A stretch of 64,000 nt of DNA from Geomonas agri. GTDB lineage: Bacteria > Desulfobacterota > Desulfuromonadia > Geobacterales > Geobacteraceae. The stretch covers positions 620,001-684,000 of the forward strand of contig NZ_JAINZO010000001.1 of the NCBI RefSeq assembly GCF_020179605.1, read 5' to 3'. The notes below the pieces were generated by a model, which was not told where the DNA came from, searched no databases, and saw nothing but the letters and a program-made list of their open reading frames with translations. Within the stretch, counting starts at the first letter, position 1, and every line of letters starts with the position of its first letter. Of the stretch, positions 2,102-55,430 are shown piece after piece. The translations under genes were made by a program, and so were the position numbers.

Positions 2102-2262
2102 GAACAGGGATAAAAGGGGATAAAGGGGATAAAGGAATAAAGACACAAGGATAACAACTTTGAGATTTTGGTTACGTCCCAGACGTTGTCCTTTCTTTGC
2201 GACTTTGCGTCTTGGCGTGACACAGGTTTTTGCTTCAGGTGTTATCCCCTTTATCCCTGTTA
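2102..2262. repeat. Dispersed AACAGGGATAAA inverted-repeat element, copy A
   Basis: The left arm starts AACAGGGATAAAAGGGG and continues with further GGGATAAA units. The right arm is GTTATCCCCTTTATCCCTG followed by TTAA. Between them, on the minus strand, is a degenerate core related to CACGCAAAGNCGCAAAG (2194-2222 region). It fills the gap between feoB and the cysteine-rich gene, whose ribosome-binding site follows directly. Six other copies occur in this window. Confidence 0.85.
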
Positions 2263-15518: not shown

Positions 15519-15658
15519 AAACAGGGATAAAGGGGATCAAAGGGATAACTGCAGAAAAGCGATCTTAACGCAAAGCCGCAAAGGCGCTAAGCAAAGATCG
15601 GTTTTGGTTTAACCCCCAGCTTGGTTTTTATCCTTTTTATCCCTTTTATCCCTGTTAA
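15519..15658. repeat. Dispersed AACAGGGATAAA inverted-repeat element, copy B
   Basis: Left arm AACAGGGATAAAGGGGATC starts at 15520. The right arm is TTTATCCC repeats ending CCCTGTTAA at 15658. The core AACGCAAAGCCGCAAAGG sits between CGATCTT and AAGATCG, which can pair. It occupies the whole kdsA-kdsD gap. Confidence 0.85.
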
Positions 15659-42106: not shown

Positions 42107-44053
42107 ATGTTTCGCACTAGAAGAATCTTGGTTTTCTGCCTCGACGTGGTGCTTATTGCCGGTGCTTTCGCACTCTCCTTTCTGCTTCGTTTCGACTTTC
42201 AAATTCCCTCTGATCAACTTAACAACTTGTTGCAAGGACTGATGCTTATCCTTGCAGTCAAACCGATCATGTTCACGGCGTCCGGGATGTATCGTAGCAT
42301 ATGGCGCTATGCCTCGCTCCAAGATGGTTATGAGATCTTTAGGGTTGTTACCCTTTCTTCTGTGCTTTCCGCACTCGCATTGGTTTTCATGAAAGGTCCT
42401 TTTGGGCTGCCCCGATCCATATACTTTCTGGACTGGTTTTTGCTCTTTTCCATGGTTGCCACCAGCCGGTTGCTCTGGCGCATCTACCGTGAGACCAAAC
42501 TGGTACCTTGTTTGCACAAGGGGAAGAGGACTCTTATCATCGGTGCGGGCGAAGCGGGCAATCTCCTGCTCAAGGAGATCCGCAAACAGGCCGACTCAAC
42601 TTACAATGTCATCGGTTTCGTGGATGACGACCCGGAGAAAAACGGGTTGCGACTCTCCGGCGTGCGTGTTATCGGCGGGACGAACCGGCTGTGTGCGCTT
42701 GTGCGCAAATATAGCATCGAGGAGGTCATCTTCGCCATCCCCTCCGGCGGGCCGGAACTGATGCGCCGCGTGATCAGCAACTGCGAAAGGGCCAAGGCCC
42801 GTTTCAAGACCTTGCCTGGGATCACCGACATTATCGACGGGAAGTTCTCCATGAGCCAGATCAAGGACGTGGAGATCGAGGACCTCCTGGGACGTGACCC
42901 GGTGGTGCTGGACCAGACGGCGATCCGCAACTACCTGACGGACAAGAGGGTGCTGGTGACCGGCGCCGCAGGCAGCATCGGTAGCGAGATCTGTCGCCAG
43001 ATTGCCCTGTTCAAACCAGCCAAGCTGGTACTCTTCGACCACGCCGAGACCCCGCTCTTCTACATCGAAAAGGAACTCGCCGCCTCATTCCCGGATTTGC
43101 GCATCATCCCGATGGTGGGGGATGTGAAGAACCAGGACCGGGTCGAGACGGTTTTTGATGAATTCGGCCCCGAAGTCGTGTTCCATGCTGCGGCGTACAA
43201 GCACGTCGCCATGATGGAGTACAACCCGGCCGAGGCGGTCCTTAACAACGTCATGGGTACCAAGGTGGTTGCAGATGCGGCCCACAAGTTCAAGGTGCGC
43301 AATTTCGTCATGGTCTCAACCGACAAGGCGGTTAACCCTACCAATGTCATGGGAGCCACCAAGAGGAGCGCCGAGATCTACGTGCAGGCGCTGGCGGCGA
43401 AAAGCCACACCAAGTTCACCACGGTCCGTTTCGGCAACGTCCTCGGCAGCAACGGCAGCGTCATCCCGCTCTTCAAGGAACAGATCCGCAACGGCGGTCC
43501 GGTGACGGTGACCGACAAGGATGTGGTGCGCTACTTCATGACCATACCGGAAGCATCGCAGTTGGTGATGCAGGCCGGGTGTATCGGGCACGGTGGGGAG
43601 ATCTTCGTGCTGGACATGGGTGAACCGGTCCGCATACTTTCGCTGGCCGAGGAACTGATCAGGCTCTCCGGTTTCATCCCGCACAAGGAGATCGAGATCC
43701 GGTTCACCGGTTTGAAGCCCGGCGAAAAGCTGTTCGAGGAACTGTTGATCGACGGAGAGGGGATCAAGGCGACCACCCACAAGAAAATCAGGGTCATGGC
43801 ACCGGTGGAGACCGATCTCAAGAAGGTCACGGCCGAGTTGGAGCAGCTCTTCAATTATGCCAAGGCTTACGACCTGGGAGCGGTGCTGGCCTCGCTCAGG
43901 AGTATCGTCCCTGAGTTTGTGCCGCGCTACCAGTTCGACGTGGCTCCACCCTTTGCGTTCCAGCGGGTCAGGCCCGACCTGTTCCCGCCCCAGAAGCTCT
44001 CATTCGTCCGAAACCTTCGCGTCGCCGGCACCAGTGAGGGAACGGCGGCTTAA
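42107..44053 (+). CDS. Membrane UDP-GlcNAc 4,6-dehydratase/epimerase (CapD/WbpM family)
   Basis: A 648-residue protein with four N-terminal transmembrane segments (residues about 8-115). A first Rossmann-like domain carries LIIGAGEAGNLLLKEI. The catalytic extended SDR from about residue 280 carries VLVTGAAGSIGSEICRQI, HAAAYKHVAMME, STDKAVNPTNVMGATKR, RFGNVLGSNGSV and GLKPGEKLFEELL. WbpM makes UDP-4-keto-6-deoxy-GlcNAc for QuiNAc/FucNAc sugars, matching the WbpV-like reductase at 37.6 kb. In the catalytic site the usual tyrosine is replaced by methionine (NVMGATK), as known for large WbpM-type proteins. The 3' two-thirds are GC-rich, unlike the AT-rich genes before. Confidence 0.93.
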   Translation: MFRTRRILVFCLDVVLIAGAFALSFLLRFDFQIPSDQLNNLLQGLMLILAVKPIMFTASGMYRSIWRYASLQDGYEIFRVVTLSSVLSALALVFMKGPFGLPRSIYFLDWFLLFSMVATSRLLWRIYRETKLVPCLHKGKRTLIIGAGEAGNLLLKEIRKQADSTYNVIGFVDDDPEKNGLRLSGVRVIGGTNRLCALVRKYSIEEVIFAIPSGGPELMRRVISNCERAKARFKTLPGITDIIDGKFSMSQIKDVEIEDLLGRDPVVLDQTAIRNYLTDKRVLVTGAAGSIGSEICRQIALFKPAKLVLFDHAETPLFYIEKELAASFPDLRIIPMVGDVKNQDRVETVFDEFGPEVVFHAAAYKHVAMMEYNPAEAVLNNVMGTKVVADAAHKFKVRNFVMVSTDKAVNPTNVMGATKRSAEIYVQALAAKSHTKFTTVRFGNVLGSNGSVIPLFKEQIRNGGPVTVTDKDVVRYFMTIPEASQLVMQAGCIGHGGEIFVLDMGEPVRILSLAEELIRLSGFIPHKEIEIRFTGLKPGEKLFEELLIDGEGIKATTHKKIRVMAPVETDLKKVTAELEQLFNYAKAYDLGAVLASLRSIVPEFVPRYQFDVAPPFAFQRVRPDLFPPQKLSFVRNLRVAGTSEGTAA

Positions 44054-44071
44054 CCGCATAAGTAAAGCGTC

Positions 44072-44625
44072 TCACGCAAAGCCGCAAAGGCGCAAAAAGA
44101 GACGGTAATCGAAAGGAGTAATTGGGGACACAAAACAGGTGGCACTGAAATAATAAGACGGATTGATTATTGTATTAACGTCTTTACGAGAGGAGGTATC
44201 CAATGAATGAGAACGAGATTGCCTCCGTGATCGTTGACGCCTCTTATAAAGTCCATAAGACGCTGGGACCTGGGTTGCTGGAGTCAGCCTATGAAACCGT
44301 GCTTGCATATGAACTGCAACAAAGAAAGCTAATGGTTTCTCGTCAACAAGCTCTTCCCGTAGTGTACGAGTCCCTTGTGTTAGACGAAGGCTACCGCGCT
44401 GATCTGATTGTTGACAAAAAAGTCATTGTGGAGCTGAAGTCTGTAGAAAAAGTGATACCTGTTCACAAAAAACAGCTTCTAACCTACCTTAGATTGTCGA
44501 ATATGAAGCTCGGGTTGTTGATAAACTTCGGAGATAACTTAATCAAGGACGGAATCACCAGAGTTGTGAATCACCTGTAACAGCAAGTTTCACGCTGTAC
44601 TTTGCGTCTTTGCGGCTTTGCGTGA
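44072..44625. mobile_element. Candidate inverted-repeat unit carrying a GxxExxY gene
   Basis: The left repeat 44072-44096 starts TCACGCAAAGCCGCAAAG and continues GCGCAAA. The right repeat 44601-44625 is its reverse complement with a single difference (24 of 25 identical). They enclose only the GxxExxY gene, and the unit is inserted between the CapD-like and Wzi-like genes. The same CGCAAAG core is found in other intergenic repeats of this window. A small hairpin (CGTCTC at 44068-44073, GAGACG at 44099-44104) brackets the left repeat. That it moves as a unit is inference. Confidence 0.5.
44203..44580 (+). CDS. GxxExxY family protein (PD-(D/E)XK-like)
   Basis: A 125-residue protein with the family motif at G24, E27 and Y30 (GLLESAY) and a nuclease-like core: D67 in YRADLIVD, and E77 and K79 in VIVELKSVE, followed by LLTYLRLSNMKLGLLINF. 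The fold is predicted to be PD-(D/E)XK but no activity is established for the family. It starts at an ATG after the strong site GAGGAGGT. It is bracketed by a 25-bp inverted pair of CGCAAAG-type repeats and is out of place functionally in a polysaccharide locus. Confidence 0.9.
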   Translation: MNENEIASVIVDASYKVHKTLGPGLLESAYETVLAYELQQRKLMVSRQQALPVVYESLVLDEGYRADLIVDKKVIVELKSVEKVIPVHKKQLLTYLRLSNMKLGLLINFGDNLIKDGITRVVNHL

Positions 44626-44636
44626 CATAGGATTGT

Positions 44637-46265
44637 ATGCGACTTTTTATTGCCGTTTTCTTTGTTGTAGTTGTGTTCTCTTCTTCTGCCTTTGCGCTTT
44701 CCTCACCGAATATTCCGCTTGAAAGCCCCATTTACTCATACCTTGAAAAGCTGTCGGGCTTCGGTCTGATTTCGTCGGACGTAAAAGGGATCCGTCCCTT
44801 CTCCAGGGCGGAGGCTGCCCGACTGGTCAAGGAGGCCGAGGCCCGCAGCGCCACTACAGCGACGCCCCCCTTGGCCGAAGAACTCCTCGACCGCCTGAGG
44901 GACCTGCTGCCGCGCGAACTCTCCTACTACGGCCGAGAAGATGTCGCACCTACTTTCGATTTCGAGCCTCTCCAGACTGCCCGCATTCGCTACGTCTACC
45001 TTGATGGTGCCCCCAGAAGCTACTTCCGCGCCGTCCATGATCCCGGCAATGATGGTGTCTTCGGTATCGGTAGCGGCCTCAGACCCGCCACTCCGTACCC
45101 GAATCCGGTCCAGCAACGCGGTTCTGAAGGCACCCCGCTTTTTGAAAACAACGATGGCATGGTCTACCACAGTGGCTCCAACCTTGACCTGCGCGGCAGC
45201 GGCGGATTGTACTTCGGTTCGATCGCATCAGCAGCAATCGAACCGATGCTCATGTGGTCGGAAGAGGGCGAGGAGGCGACCCTGCGCTTGAATAAAGGGT
45301 ATGCAAAGTTGGGAGGCAAGGGGCTCGAGTTGGAGGTGGGGCGCGACGAAAACTGGCTGGGACCGGGCTACCGTGGTGCAATCACCCTCACCAACAACGC
45401 CAAAAACTTCGATATCATCAAGCTTTCCAGCCCGGAACTGGTGAAAACAAAATACCTGTGGGACCTCAAGTATTCCCTCATTTTCTCCCGACTCGAGAAG
45501 ACGGTGACCAACGGTCAGGAGCGCCAGCCTTTCTTCTTCGCAGGCAAACTGGCCATGAAGCCGCTCGATAACCTAGAGTTCGGCATCAACTTGGGGCGCC
45601 AAGTGGGCGGCCCCGGCGTCGACAACAGCGTTGGCGCTACCGTACGCGGCATGGTTGGCGGCACCGGCGACGACAACTCCAACACCATCGCTGGCTTCGA
45701 TCTGCGCTATCGTTTGCCCTGGCTGCGTAACACTGAACTGTACGGTGAACTCTCGGGCGAGGACTCAGCCGCGTTCTGGCCCATCGTCGAGAGCTATGTT
45801 GCCGGCTTCTACATCCCACGGCTCACCCAAAGCGGACAGGACGACCTCCGCTTCGAGTATTTCCGCGGCCACCGTATCCTCTACACCAACAGCACCTTCC
45901 CGGAAGGGTATCTGAGGTATAACATGCCCATCGGCCATTCGCAGGGGGGGGCGACCCAGGACTTCTTCCTGCGCTACAGCCACTGGTTTTCGGTTCGCAA
46001 CAACCTGGCGCTGGAGGCCTTCCACACCAGGCGCGGCGACTACGGCCGGATGACAGTCGATGCCACCGGCAGCTTCGACCCGGCGGGCGTGATGCAATCC
46101 ATCGAGCGCAAGAATGCCCTCCGTGCTTCCTGGACCTTCCCGTTCTCCAAAGAGTGGAACGCCCTGCTGCTCTACGGGCAGGAGTGGATCCACAACTACG
46201 ACCTGCGCGCCGGCGAAACGCAGATGAACCAGTTGGTCCGCGCCGAACTTTCCTACAGGTATTAA
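44637..46265 (+). CDS. Wzi-like capsule assembly outer-membrane protein
   Basis: A 542-residue exported protein with signal peptide MRLFIAVFFVVVVFSSSAFA. An N-terminal helical region (LSGFGLISSDVKGIRPFSRAEAARLV) is followed by many alternating-hydrophobic strands with aromatic ends, finishing VRAELSYRY, as in an outer-membrane barrel. The layout matches the capsule assembly Wzi family (PF14052), which anchors or organises surface polysaccharide. Its start lies 11 bases after the right repeat of the GxxExxY unit, so that unit now forms its immediate leader. It closes the polysaccharide locus. Confidence 0.87.
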   Translation: MRLFIAVFFVVVVFSSSAFALSSPNIPLESPIYSYLEKLSGFGLISSDVKGIRPFSRAEAARLVKEAEARSATTATPPLAEELLDRLRDLLPRELSYYGREDVAPTFDFEPLQTARIRYVYLDGAPRSYFRAVHDPGNDGVFGIGSGLRPATPYPNPVQQRGSEGTPLFENNDGMVYHSGSNLDLRGSGGLYFGSIASAAIEPMLMWSEEGEEATLRLNKGYAKLGGKGLELEVGRDENWLGPGYRGAITLTNNAKNFDIIKLSSPELVKTKYLWDLKYSLIFSRLEKTVTNGQERQPFFFAGKLAMKPLDNLEFGINLGRQVGGPGVDNSVGATVRGMVGGTGDDNSNTIAGFDLRYRLPWLRNTELYGELSGEDSAAFWPIVESYVAGFYIPRLTQSGQDDLRFEYFRGHRILYTNSTFPEGYLRYNMPIGHSQGGATQDFFLRYSHWFSVRNNLALEAFHTRRGDYGRMTVDATGSFDPAGVMQSIERKNALRASWTFPFSKEWNALLLYGQEWIHNYDLRAGETQMNQLVRAELSYRY

Positions 46266-50028: not shown

Positions 50029-50196
50029 TTAACAGGGATAAAGGGGATAAAAGGGATAAAAGGGATAAAAGGGATAAAAATAAAAGACGGTTGTTAACGC
50101 AAAGGCGCATTGACCGAGAAAACATATTACAGGTACAGGGTGCGGGGTGAACCAGGGACATTGATGTATCCCCTTTATCCCTTGTGTCCCTGTTAA
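50029..50196. repeat. Dispersed AACAGGGATAAA inverted-repeat element, copy E
   Basis: The left arm TTAACAGGGATAAAGGGG expands into five GGGATAAA units (to about 50082), the longest arm in the window. The core GTTAACGCAAAGGCGCATTG lies between CGGT and ACCG. The right arm ATCCCCTTTATCCC...TGTTAA ends at 50196. Confidence 0.85.
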
Positions 50197-51482: not shown

Positions 51483-51613
51483 TTAACAGGGATAAAAGGG
51501 ATAAAGTCATAAAATCCAGGTTTTAACGCGAAGGCGCAAAGGCACAGAGTAATCTGGAAACGGGTCCACGTCTGGTTAAGCCAGATGCCTTTTATCCCGT
51601 TTATCCCTGTTAA
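51483..51613. repeat. Dispersed AACAGGGATAAA inverted-repeat element, copy F
   Basis: Left arm TTAACAGGGATAAAAGGG. The core TTTTAACGCGAAGGCGCAAA lies between TCCAG and CTGGA. The right arm CCTTTTATCCCGTTTATCCC ends CTGTTAA at 51613. Confidence 0.85.
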
Positions 51614-51723
51614 TCGTTTTTCGGTTTCCTGCTTTTGCGGACCCTGCTTTCCTGTTCGTTGCAAACCTCCTCCCTCATTGGTATCCTCTTAGGCATTTGC
51701 TGCAGCCGTCAACGGGGGGGAGG

Positions 51724-54260: not shown

Positions 54261-54431
54261 TTAACAGGGATAAAAGGGATAAAAGGGATGAAAGGGATGA
54301 AAGGAAATAAAGACAAAATCTTTCTTAACGCAAAGGCGTGGAGGCGCAAAGAAAAGATCTGAAACACCCAAGGCTTGGGGGCAAAATCTTTTGTTTGGTT
54401 TTATCCTTTGTATCCCTTTTATCCCTGTTAA
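54261..54431. repeat. Dispersed AACAGGGATAAA inverted-repeat element, copy G
   Basis: Left arm TTAACAGGGATAAAAGGG with GGGATAAA/GGGATGAA units. The core CTTAACGCAAAGGCG then GGCGCAAAG lies between ATCTTT and AAAGAT. The right arm TTATCCTTTGTATCCC ends CCCTGTTAA at 54431. It fills the gap between cysE (stop at 54438) and mtaB. Confidence 0.85.
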
Positions 54432-55234: not shown

Positions 55235-55430
55235 TCACTCAAGACGCAAAGACGCAAAGTAAACCTGAAATCAACGTCATTTAACAGGGATAAAAGGGAT
55301 GAAGGGGATAACACCTGAAACCAAAAGATTTTAGGTTAAACCAAAAGTCTCGTAGTTTTGGCCTGGCTTTGCGCCTTTGCGTCTTTGCGTGAGCAAAGGT
55401 TTTTATGCCCTTACCCCCTTTATCCCTGTT
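55235..55430. repeat. Compound repeat, copy H (AACAGGGATAAA arms and inverted CGCAAAG cores)
   Basis: In order: core AAGACGCAAAGACGCAAAG (55241-55259), left arm TTAACAGGGATAAAAGGG (from 55281), an inverted core CTTTGCGCCTTTGCGTC then TTTGCGTGAG (55368-55392), and right arm CCCCTTTATCCCTGTT (to 55430). The right arm lies inside the 3' end of miaA and provides its last codons and stop. Confidence 0.82.

Follow-up and report, generated by a model that had tools for sequence, protein, structure and literature searches.

Does the GxxExxY gene of Geomonas agri belong together with the inverted repeats that enclose it, or are the two neighbors by accident? The gene lies in a 64,000-nucleotide stretch of contig NZ_JAINZO010000001.1 (positions 620,001 to 684,000 of the forward strand; hereafter, the window). 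The first-pass annotation of the window had described a near-perfect 25-bp inverted repeat around a GxxExxY gene with its own ribosome-binding site, and this description was borne out. The left arm (44072..44096, plus strand), made up of TCAC and CGCAAAG-type heptamers, and the right arm (44601..44625, minus strand) are each 25 nucleotides long, are complementary at 24 of 25 positions (96%), and have a spacing of 504 nucleotides. The arms enclose a GAGGAGG ribosome-binding site (44190..44196, plus strand) and the gene itself (44203..44580, plus strand), which encodes a protein of 125 amino acids predicted from modeling and a fold search to be a PD-(D/E)XK nuclease. This protein matched TIGR04256 with 148 bits (cut-off 35) and PF13366 with 142.9 bits (cut-off 22), and these were the only families matched at an E-value of 0.001. 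The sequence comparisons below give good support to the reading of gene and arms as a single unit.

Association of GxxExxY genes with inverted arms

We scored arms by aligning the 250 bases upstream of a gene with the reverse complement of the 250 bases downstream; a score of at least 14 needs no heptamers, and the pairs that reach it include inverted matches of other kinds. Among the first 32 loci, 26 scored at least 15, compared with 1 of 64 off-gene control windows. The wider set, which spans many phyla (taken from record titles, mostly of metagenome bins), comprises the 80 top-ranked among 584 confirmed relatives and is biased towards the subfamily of the query. Here, 61 of the 80 GxxExxY genes scored at least 14, compared with 9 of 1,997 off-gene windows and 8 of 386 open reading frames (ORFs) of 80-500 amino acids from the same loci; six of the 80 loci have fewer than 100 bases on one side and were kept in these counts. 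Within the order, where the sample comprised 112 matches taken in descending order of score, 87 of the 112 loci scored at least 14, compared with 3 of 223 windows that may include one arm of an adjacent GxxExxY gene. The wider and order sets have two loci in common (L040 = L112 and L070 = L273). At the genus level, 35 of 41 genes were armed (43 matches minus two short fragments). The association that the first-pass annotation had suggested testing in Geobacterales therefore holds within the order and in the wider set, and the ORF control contradicts an equal density of such repeats around unrelated genes, yet one unrelated family, S23, has inverted repeats of another type at 20 of 30 loci.

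The genome of G. agri contains a second GxxExxY gene, located between two nuo-like genes and flanked by inverted CACAGAG arrays; CGCAAAG is absent from its 3.35-kb locus. Since the arms of this gene have another sequence, we suspected a more general rule. CGCAAAG was rejected as the specific signal, as arms vary widely; it is one among many arm classes. CGCAAAG was present in both flanks at 32 of the 80 wider loci, compared with 7 of 1,997 windows, and at 23 of the 40 with the closest proteins, compared with 9 of the remaining 40. A typical arm comprises two to four degenerate heptamers that point inward (upstream-arm polarity was inward in 91 elements, outward in 7, and unscorable in 62). Many arms are tandem C[AG]CNN[AC]N heptamers, such as CGCAAAG, CACAGAG, CACGGAG, CACAAAG, CGCAACG, and CACGGAT, among others, with an exactly repeated heptamer in 82 of 160 armed elements and a tandem pair in 104 of 160. 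The autocorrelation of the arms peaks at lags of 8-10, and arms lie a median of 34 bases (upstream) or 32 bases (downstream) from the aligned domain. Some GxxExxY lineages have arm units of another kind, e.g., AGGGATAAA.

Two loci were unusual. The GxxExxY gene of L050 (genome G073) has an inverted repeat of about 57-60 bases, far longer than in its relatives, and G114 contains two GxxExxY copies 1.8 kb apart (L234 and L235) that are 99.8% identical over 660 bases.

Arm lineages and gene-less derivatives

Elements with more similar proteins also have more similar arms (Mantel r = 0.55 between arm similarity and protein identity over 158 elements; 0.65 for the order and junction loci and 0.45 for the wider set). 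This test covers armed units only, 158 of 209 loci, selected by a score of at least 14 and a protein of at least 90 amino acids, with four duplicate loci removed. The correlation was unchanged after one duplicate locus was dropped, and the largest permuted value was 0.15. For the 44 same-genome pairs whose proteins are less than 60% identical, arm similarity was 0.26-0.34, the level of unrelated pairs from different genomes.

The gene in the window lies between a capD-like gene (Polysacc_synt_2) and a wzi-like gene (PF14052), and this junction was detected in 17 of the 19 genomes from the same genus. Five of the 17 contain the GxxExxY lineage of the window with CGCAAAG arms, and seven contain another GxxExxY lineage with AGGGATAAA arms. 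The remaining five contradict the possibility, which the first-pass annotation had raised, that this junction has no allele without the gene: G056, G064, and G052 have gene-less repeats, G060 has a solo arm-like stretch, and in G075 nothing was recognized. Since two GxxExxY lineages with different arms occupy this one junction, the arms follow the protein and not the site; to judge from these comparisons, arm sequence is tied to protein lineage rather than to genome or site.

We also compared 244 pairs of related genes (gene identity of at least 68%, both armed, flanks of at least 600), of which 112, involving 69 elements, have non-homologous flanks. In these 112 pairs (155 arm comparisons), arm identity was 0.84, falling to 0.33 just outside the arms and then to 0.28. 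Because local alignment favors high identity, the arm score is the fairer contrast, and it was 16.5 for related pairs and 6.6 for unrelated pairs. At the level of sequence, gene and arms thus remain linked through changes of context.

The nuoM-nuoN junction, whose two genes were assigned from their sequences, was compared across 19 genomes. Five contain the gene with CACAGAG-class arms (the match is in two pieces in G052 and ends early in G044), and two contain internally deleted remnants (G054 and G030). Short hairpin-like arms are present in G024, G069, and G064, and eroded arms are present in G042 and G048. Four genomes (L144, L146, L148, and L158) have different, direct TGGGAG-type arrays without the gene, and in three nothing was recognized. 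At a third junction, five relatives have the gene, and the genome of the window itself (G000, L307) lacks the middle of the gene and retains both gene ends and the downstream arm. The remnants at these two junctions show gene-less forms arising through internal deletion of gene-bearing units; at nuoM-nuoN, intact units, remnants, and arms without a gene all occupy a single orthologous site. At the third junction, four further loci of the same genus (L305, L310, L312, and L317) have long TTCGACGAATC-like arrays without the gene.

The flank counts, the gene-less junctions, and these remnants support the earlier proposal of a gene-carrying unit with gene-less relatives. That proposal had also likened the relatives to miniature inverted-repeat transposable elements (MITEs), and internally deleted, non-autonomous copies do exist. 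There was no signal of target-site duplication outside the arms of 118 elements (3.37 compared with 3.36 expected, with arm ends that are only approximate), a result that argues against a transposase of the classical kind.

A gene-less CGCAAAG hairpin of the window's genome is predicted to fold with -39.3 kcal/mol (z = -10.2). At the site of this hairpin (the etfA site), seven of nine loci, from seven genomes, have CGCAAAG hairpins, which fall into three types; this looks like turnover at one site. The two more distant G085 loci lack a hairpin; with neighbors only 59-60% identical, these loci may be paralogous, so they are not clean empty sites.

Repeats cognate to the arms are, on average, more numerous where the armed gene is present, as shown by Mann-Whitney tests that ignore the kinship of the genomes. 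In the genus, tandem copies of CGCAAAG number 44-115 in ten genomes with a CGCAAAG-armed gene and 0-83 in nine without (P = 8e-4, or 1e-3 if the uncertain G030 changes group), and copies of AGGGATAAA number 0-61 in eight genomes with a AGGGATAAA-armed gene and 0-35 in eleven without (P = 0.024). Likewise, five genomes in which CGCAACG arms were seen contain 1-10 copies of this repeat, compared with mostly none in 112 others (81 zeros; P = 5e-5, or 5e-6 with the one-sided G080 added). Records named as Cyanobacteria, Planctomycetota, and Desulfobacterota also encode proteins 66-74% identical to that of the window beside similar CGCAAAG arms.

Candidate mechanism and competing explanations

We predict that the GxxExxY protein is a minimal, stand-alone PD-(D/E)XK nuclease resembling Cas4 and lambda exonuclease. 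Across 54 sequences, residues E27, D67, E77, and K79 are invariant and Q91 and Y95 are conserved in at least 90%; together with the fold matches, these residues fit a PD-(D/E)XK nuclease with a QxxxY motif, for which activity is predicted. A sequence search of solved structures with the window protein returned one insignificant match. Cas4 proteins have cysteines that hold an iron-sulfur cluster. The 125-residue window protein differs from Cas4- and lambda-exonuclease-type enzymes in having no cysteine in its translation and in being encoded between capD-like and wzi-like genes rather than in a CRISPR or recombination operon. The gene is under purifying selection: the ratio of nonsynonymous to synonymous substitution (dN/dS) was estimable for 15 of 43 pairs and lay at 0.03-0.09. 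A role as an anti-phage system was rejected, given weak, Cas4-like PADLOC matches (best E = 0.0021) and a best PHROGs E-value of 0.03. A search of positions 43900-44800 against Rfam gave no match to a known RNA family up to an E-value of 1.

The explanation that we favor, at a probability of roughly 0.6, is a widespread compact element consisting of a GxxExxY nuclease gene and two inverted arms of lineage-specific heptamers, in which the nuclease would recognize and cut the arms. Recognition would most likely involve a hairpin or cruciform formed by the paired arms, and cutting would take place at the recognized arms. Host repair or replication would then copy the unit into another intergenic site, or do so in trans for a gene-less hairpin. 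That the protein mobilizes the repeats is likely, though unproven. Given the purifying selection, many copies may be maintained in semi-domesticated form.

Several observations weigh against this explanation. No arm pair reached the threshold in 19 of the 80 wider genes and 25 of the 112 order genes. Repeats are also numerous without their cognate gene: G054 has 83 CGCAAAG copies, the genome of the window has 32 AGGGATAAA copies, and G094, a genome without any GxxExxY match, has nine CGCAACG copies. A single arm folds weakly alone (z = -2.2 and -0.6). No clean single-event empty site was found among the genomes compared, one per species, and the lack of target duplication noted above also counts here. 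Changed flanks between distant genomes can reflect ordinary rearrangement and do not by themselves prove transposition. Enzymes of the PD-(D/E)XK fold hydrolyze DNA, and strand joining is not known for them; insertion would therefore depend on functions of the host. Finally, long persistence at fixed junctions and the low dN/dS also fit a host role.

Such a role could be served by a pair that is useful to the host and not mobile, with hairpin arms acting for the chromosome (at transcript ends, in supercoiling, or as repair hot spots), a nuclease that processes these structures, and copies made by ordinary duplication or recombination. We regard this as unlikely, although some evidence favors it: besides the dN/dS values, the same junctions are occupied across the genus, and the window protein matched none of 50,697 phage records and 8 of 72,556 plasmid records. 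It accounts poorly for the patchy presence of the gene, the replacement of one lineage by another at capD-wzi, the several unrelated GxxExxY lineages within a genome, and the similar units in distant phyla. Somewhat less probable still is a passive cassette, in which arms and gene are moved by another enzyme or by repeat recombination and the nuclease has a different role. The numerous repeats in genomes that lack a cognate gene, the missing target duplication, and the same layout with other repeats in the unrelated S23 family are all compatible with this; the tracking of protein lineage by the arms and the higher number of cognate repeats where the gene is present argue against it. The first-pass annotation had considered that the gene simply landed between two pre-existing repeats, which are indeed common in the window's genome. 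We reject this as highly improbable because of the flank controls (61 of 80 and 87 of 112 genes, compared with 9 of 1,997 and 3 of 223 windows and 8 of 386 ORFs) and because arms follow the protein and not the genome.

The proposed nuclease-and-arms element has a logic similar to that of repetitive extragenic palindromes (REPs) with their RAYT proteins or of homing, with different chemistry. RAYT proteins are HUH tyrosine transposases. As with REPINs and RAYTs, a chromosomal nuclease gene lies beside inverted repeats that also exist as many gene-less hairpin copies; the GxxExxY protein differs in matching PD-(D/E)XK families only, and its arms are short tandem heptamer arrays, whereas a REP is a palindrome. 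The gene-less inverted repeats are MITE-like and are traced here to internal deletion, but the GxxExxY units differ from MITEs and DDE transposons in lacking a detectable target duplication, and we know of no DDE transposase parent for them. In the open-access literature (subscription papers and preprints lay outside the search), we found no link of GxxExxY, PDDEXK_3, PF13366, TIGR04256, or COG5614 to repeat arms, and the sole match to twelve arm strings, in the text available, was in the context of human satellite DNA. The term GxxExxY came up there in PMC8934634 and PMC12085832, and PDDEXK_3 came up in no paper.

Many bacteria have abundant short-period intergenic repeats, most of them with no named maker; the matched arm code ties a named but uncharacterized protein family to one large class of them. 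If each GxxExxY nuclease recognizes only its own heptamers, a minimal element can be powered by a Cas4-like nuclease, the gene allows its repeats to be predicted, and many proteins annotated only as "GxxExxY protein" acquire a function. More tentatively, and at somewhat less than even odds, GxxExxY genes with lineage-specific heptamer arms may constitute a new class of autonomous mobile element in many bacterial phyla, in which a Cas4-like nuclease and hairpin arms replace a transposase. Gene-less hairpins would then supply a large share of the unexplained short-period repeats between genes, and S23, with period-7 arms of its own, would represent a second, convergent family of this layout.

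A second armed family and other repeats of the window

S23 four-helix-bundle genes (TIGR02436) served as a control family. In the 30 loci retrieved (L274-L303), 20 genes lie within inverted repeats, compared with 3 of 60 windows. Their arms have a period of 7 (GGGGACT, GTGAATG, GTAAAAA), and the tandem grammar of GxxExxY arms was found in none of the 20. By sequence, S23 is a separate, unrelated family with the same layout and different arms, which weakens any claim that the layout is unique to GxxExxY. In the passages available to us, G-rich heptamer repeats of Xanthomonas and Nostoc form intergenic arrays, often as convergent pairs in Xanthomonas (PMC4692102), as do the TAACTGA heptamers of Beggiatoaceae (PMC4679880). 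GxxExxY units likewise have intergenic heptamer arrays, but unlike these units, the repeats are described in those passages without naming a partner gene; in motif, they may be closer to S23 arms than to GxxExxY arms.

The window contains 28 copies of CGCAAAG, compared with a mean of 12 and a maximum of 22 in 100 dinucleotide shuffles, and the tandem form of this motif, CGCAAAGNCGCAAAG, occurs 52 times in the whole genome (reversed control, 0). The core had been listed earlier at several other places in the window, and the motif is present at each. A second inverted repeat family, AACAGGGATAAAAGGGAT.../TTATCCCTGTTAA, surrounds five of the CGCAAAG places. Each of the AGGGATAAA inverted repeats at 2106-2258, 15523-15653, 50034-50182, 51488-51640, and 54266-54426 has a CGCAAAG heptamer or array inside. 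These are a solo CGCAAAG-class array (2195..2217, minus strand) within the pair 2106-2133/2242-2258; a solo array (15569..15583, plus strand) within 15523-15548/15636-15653; a lone heptamer (50098..50104, plus strand) within 50034-50078/50165-50182; a solo CGCGAAG-CGCAAAG-CACAGAG array (51527..51549, plus strand) adjoining the arm at 51488-51505, with a right arm near 51600 assigned by eye; and two heptamers (54329..54351, plus strand) within 54266-54301/54409-54426. A gene-less CGCAAAG pair has its left arm at 55245..55259 (plus strand) and its right arm at 55367..55389 (minus strand), and here the nesting is reversed. Because AGGGATAAA and CGCAAAG repeats nest both ways, it seems that the repeat units of the window insert into each other or take each other's place.
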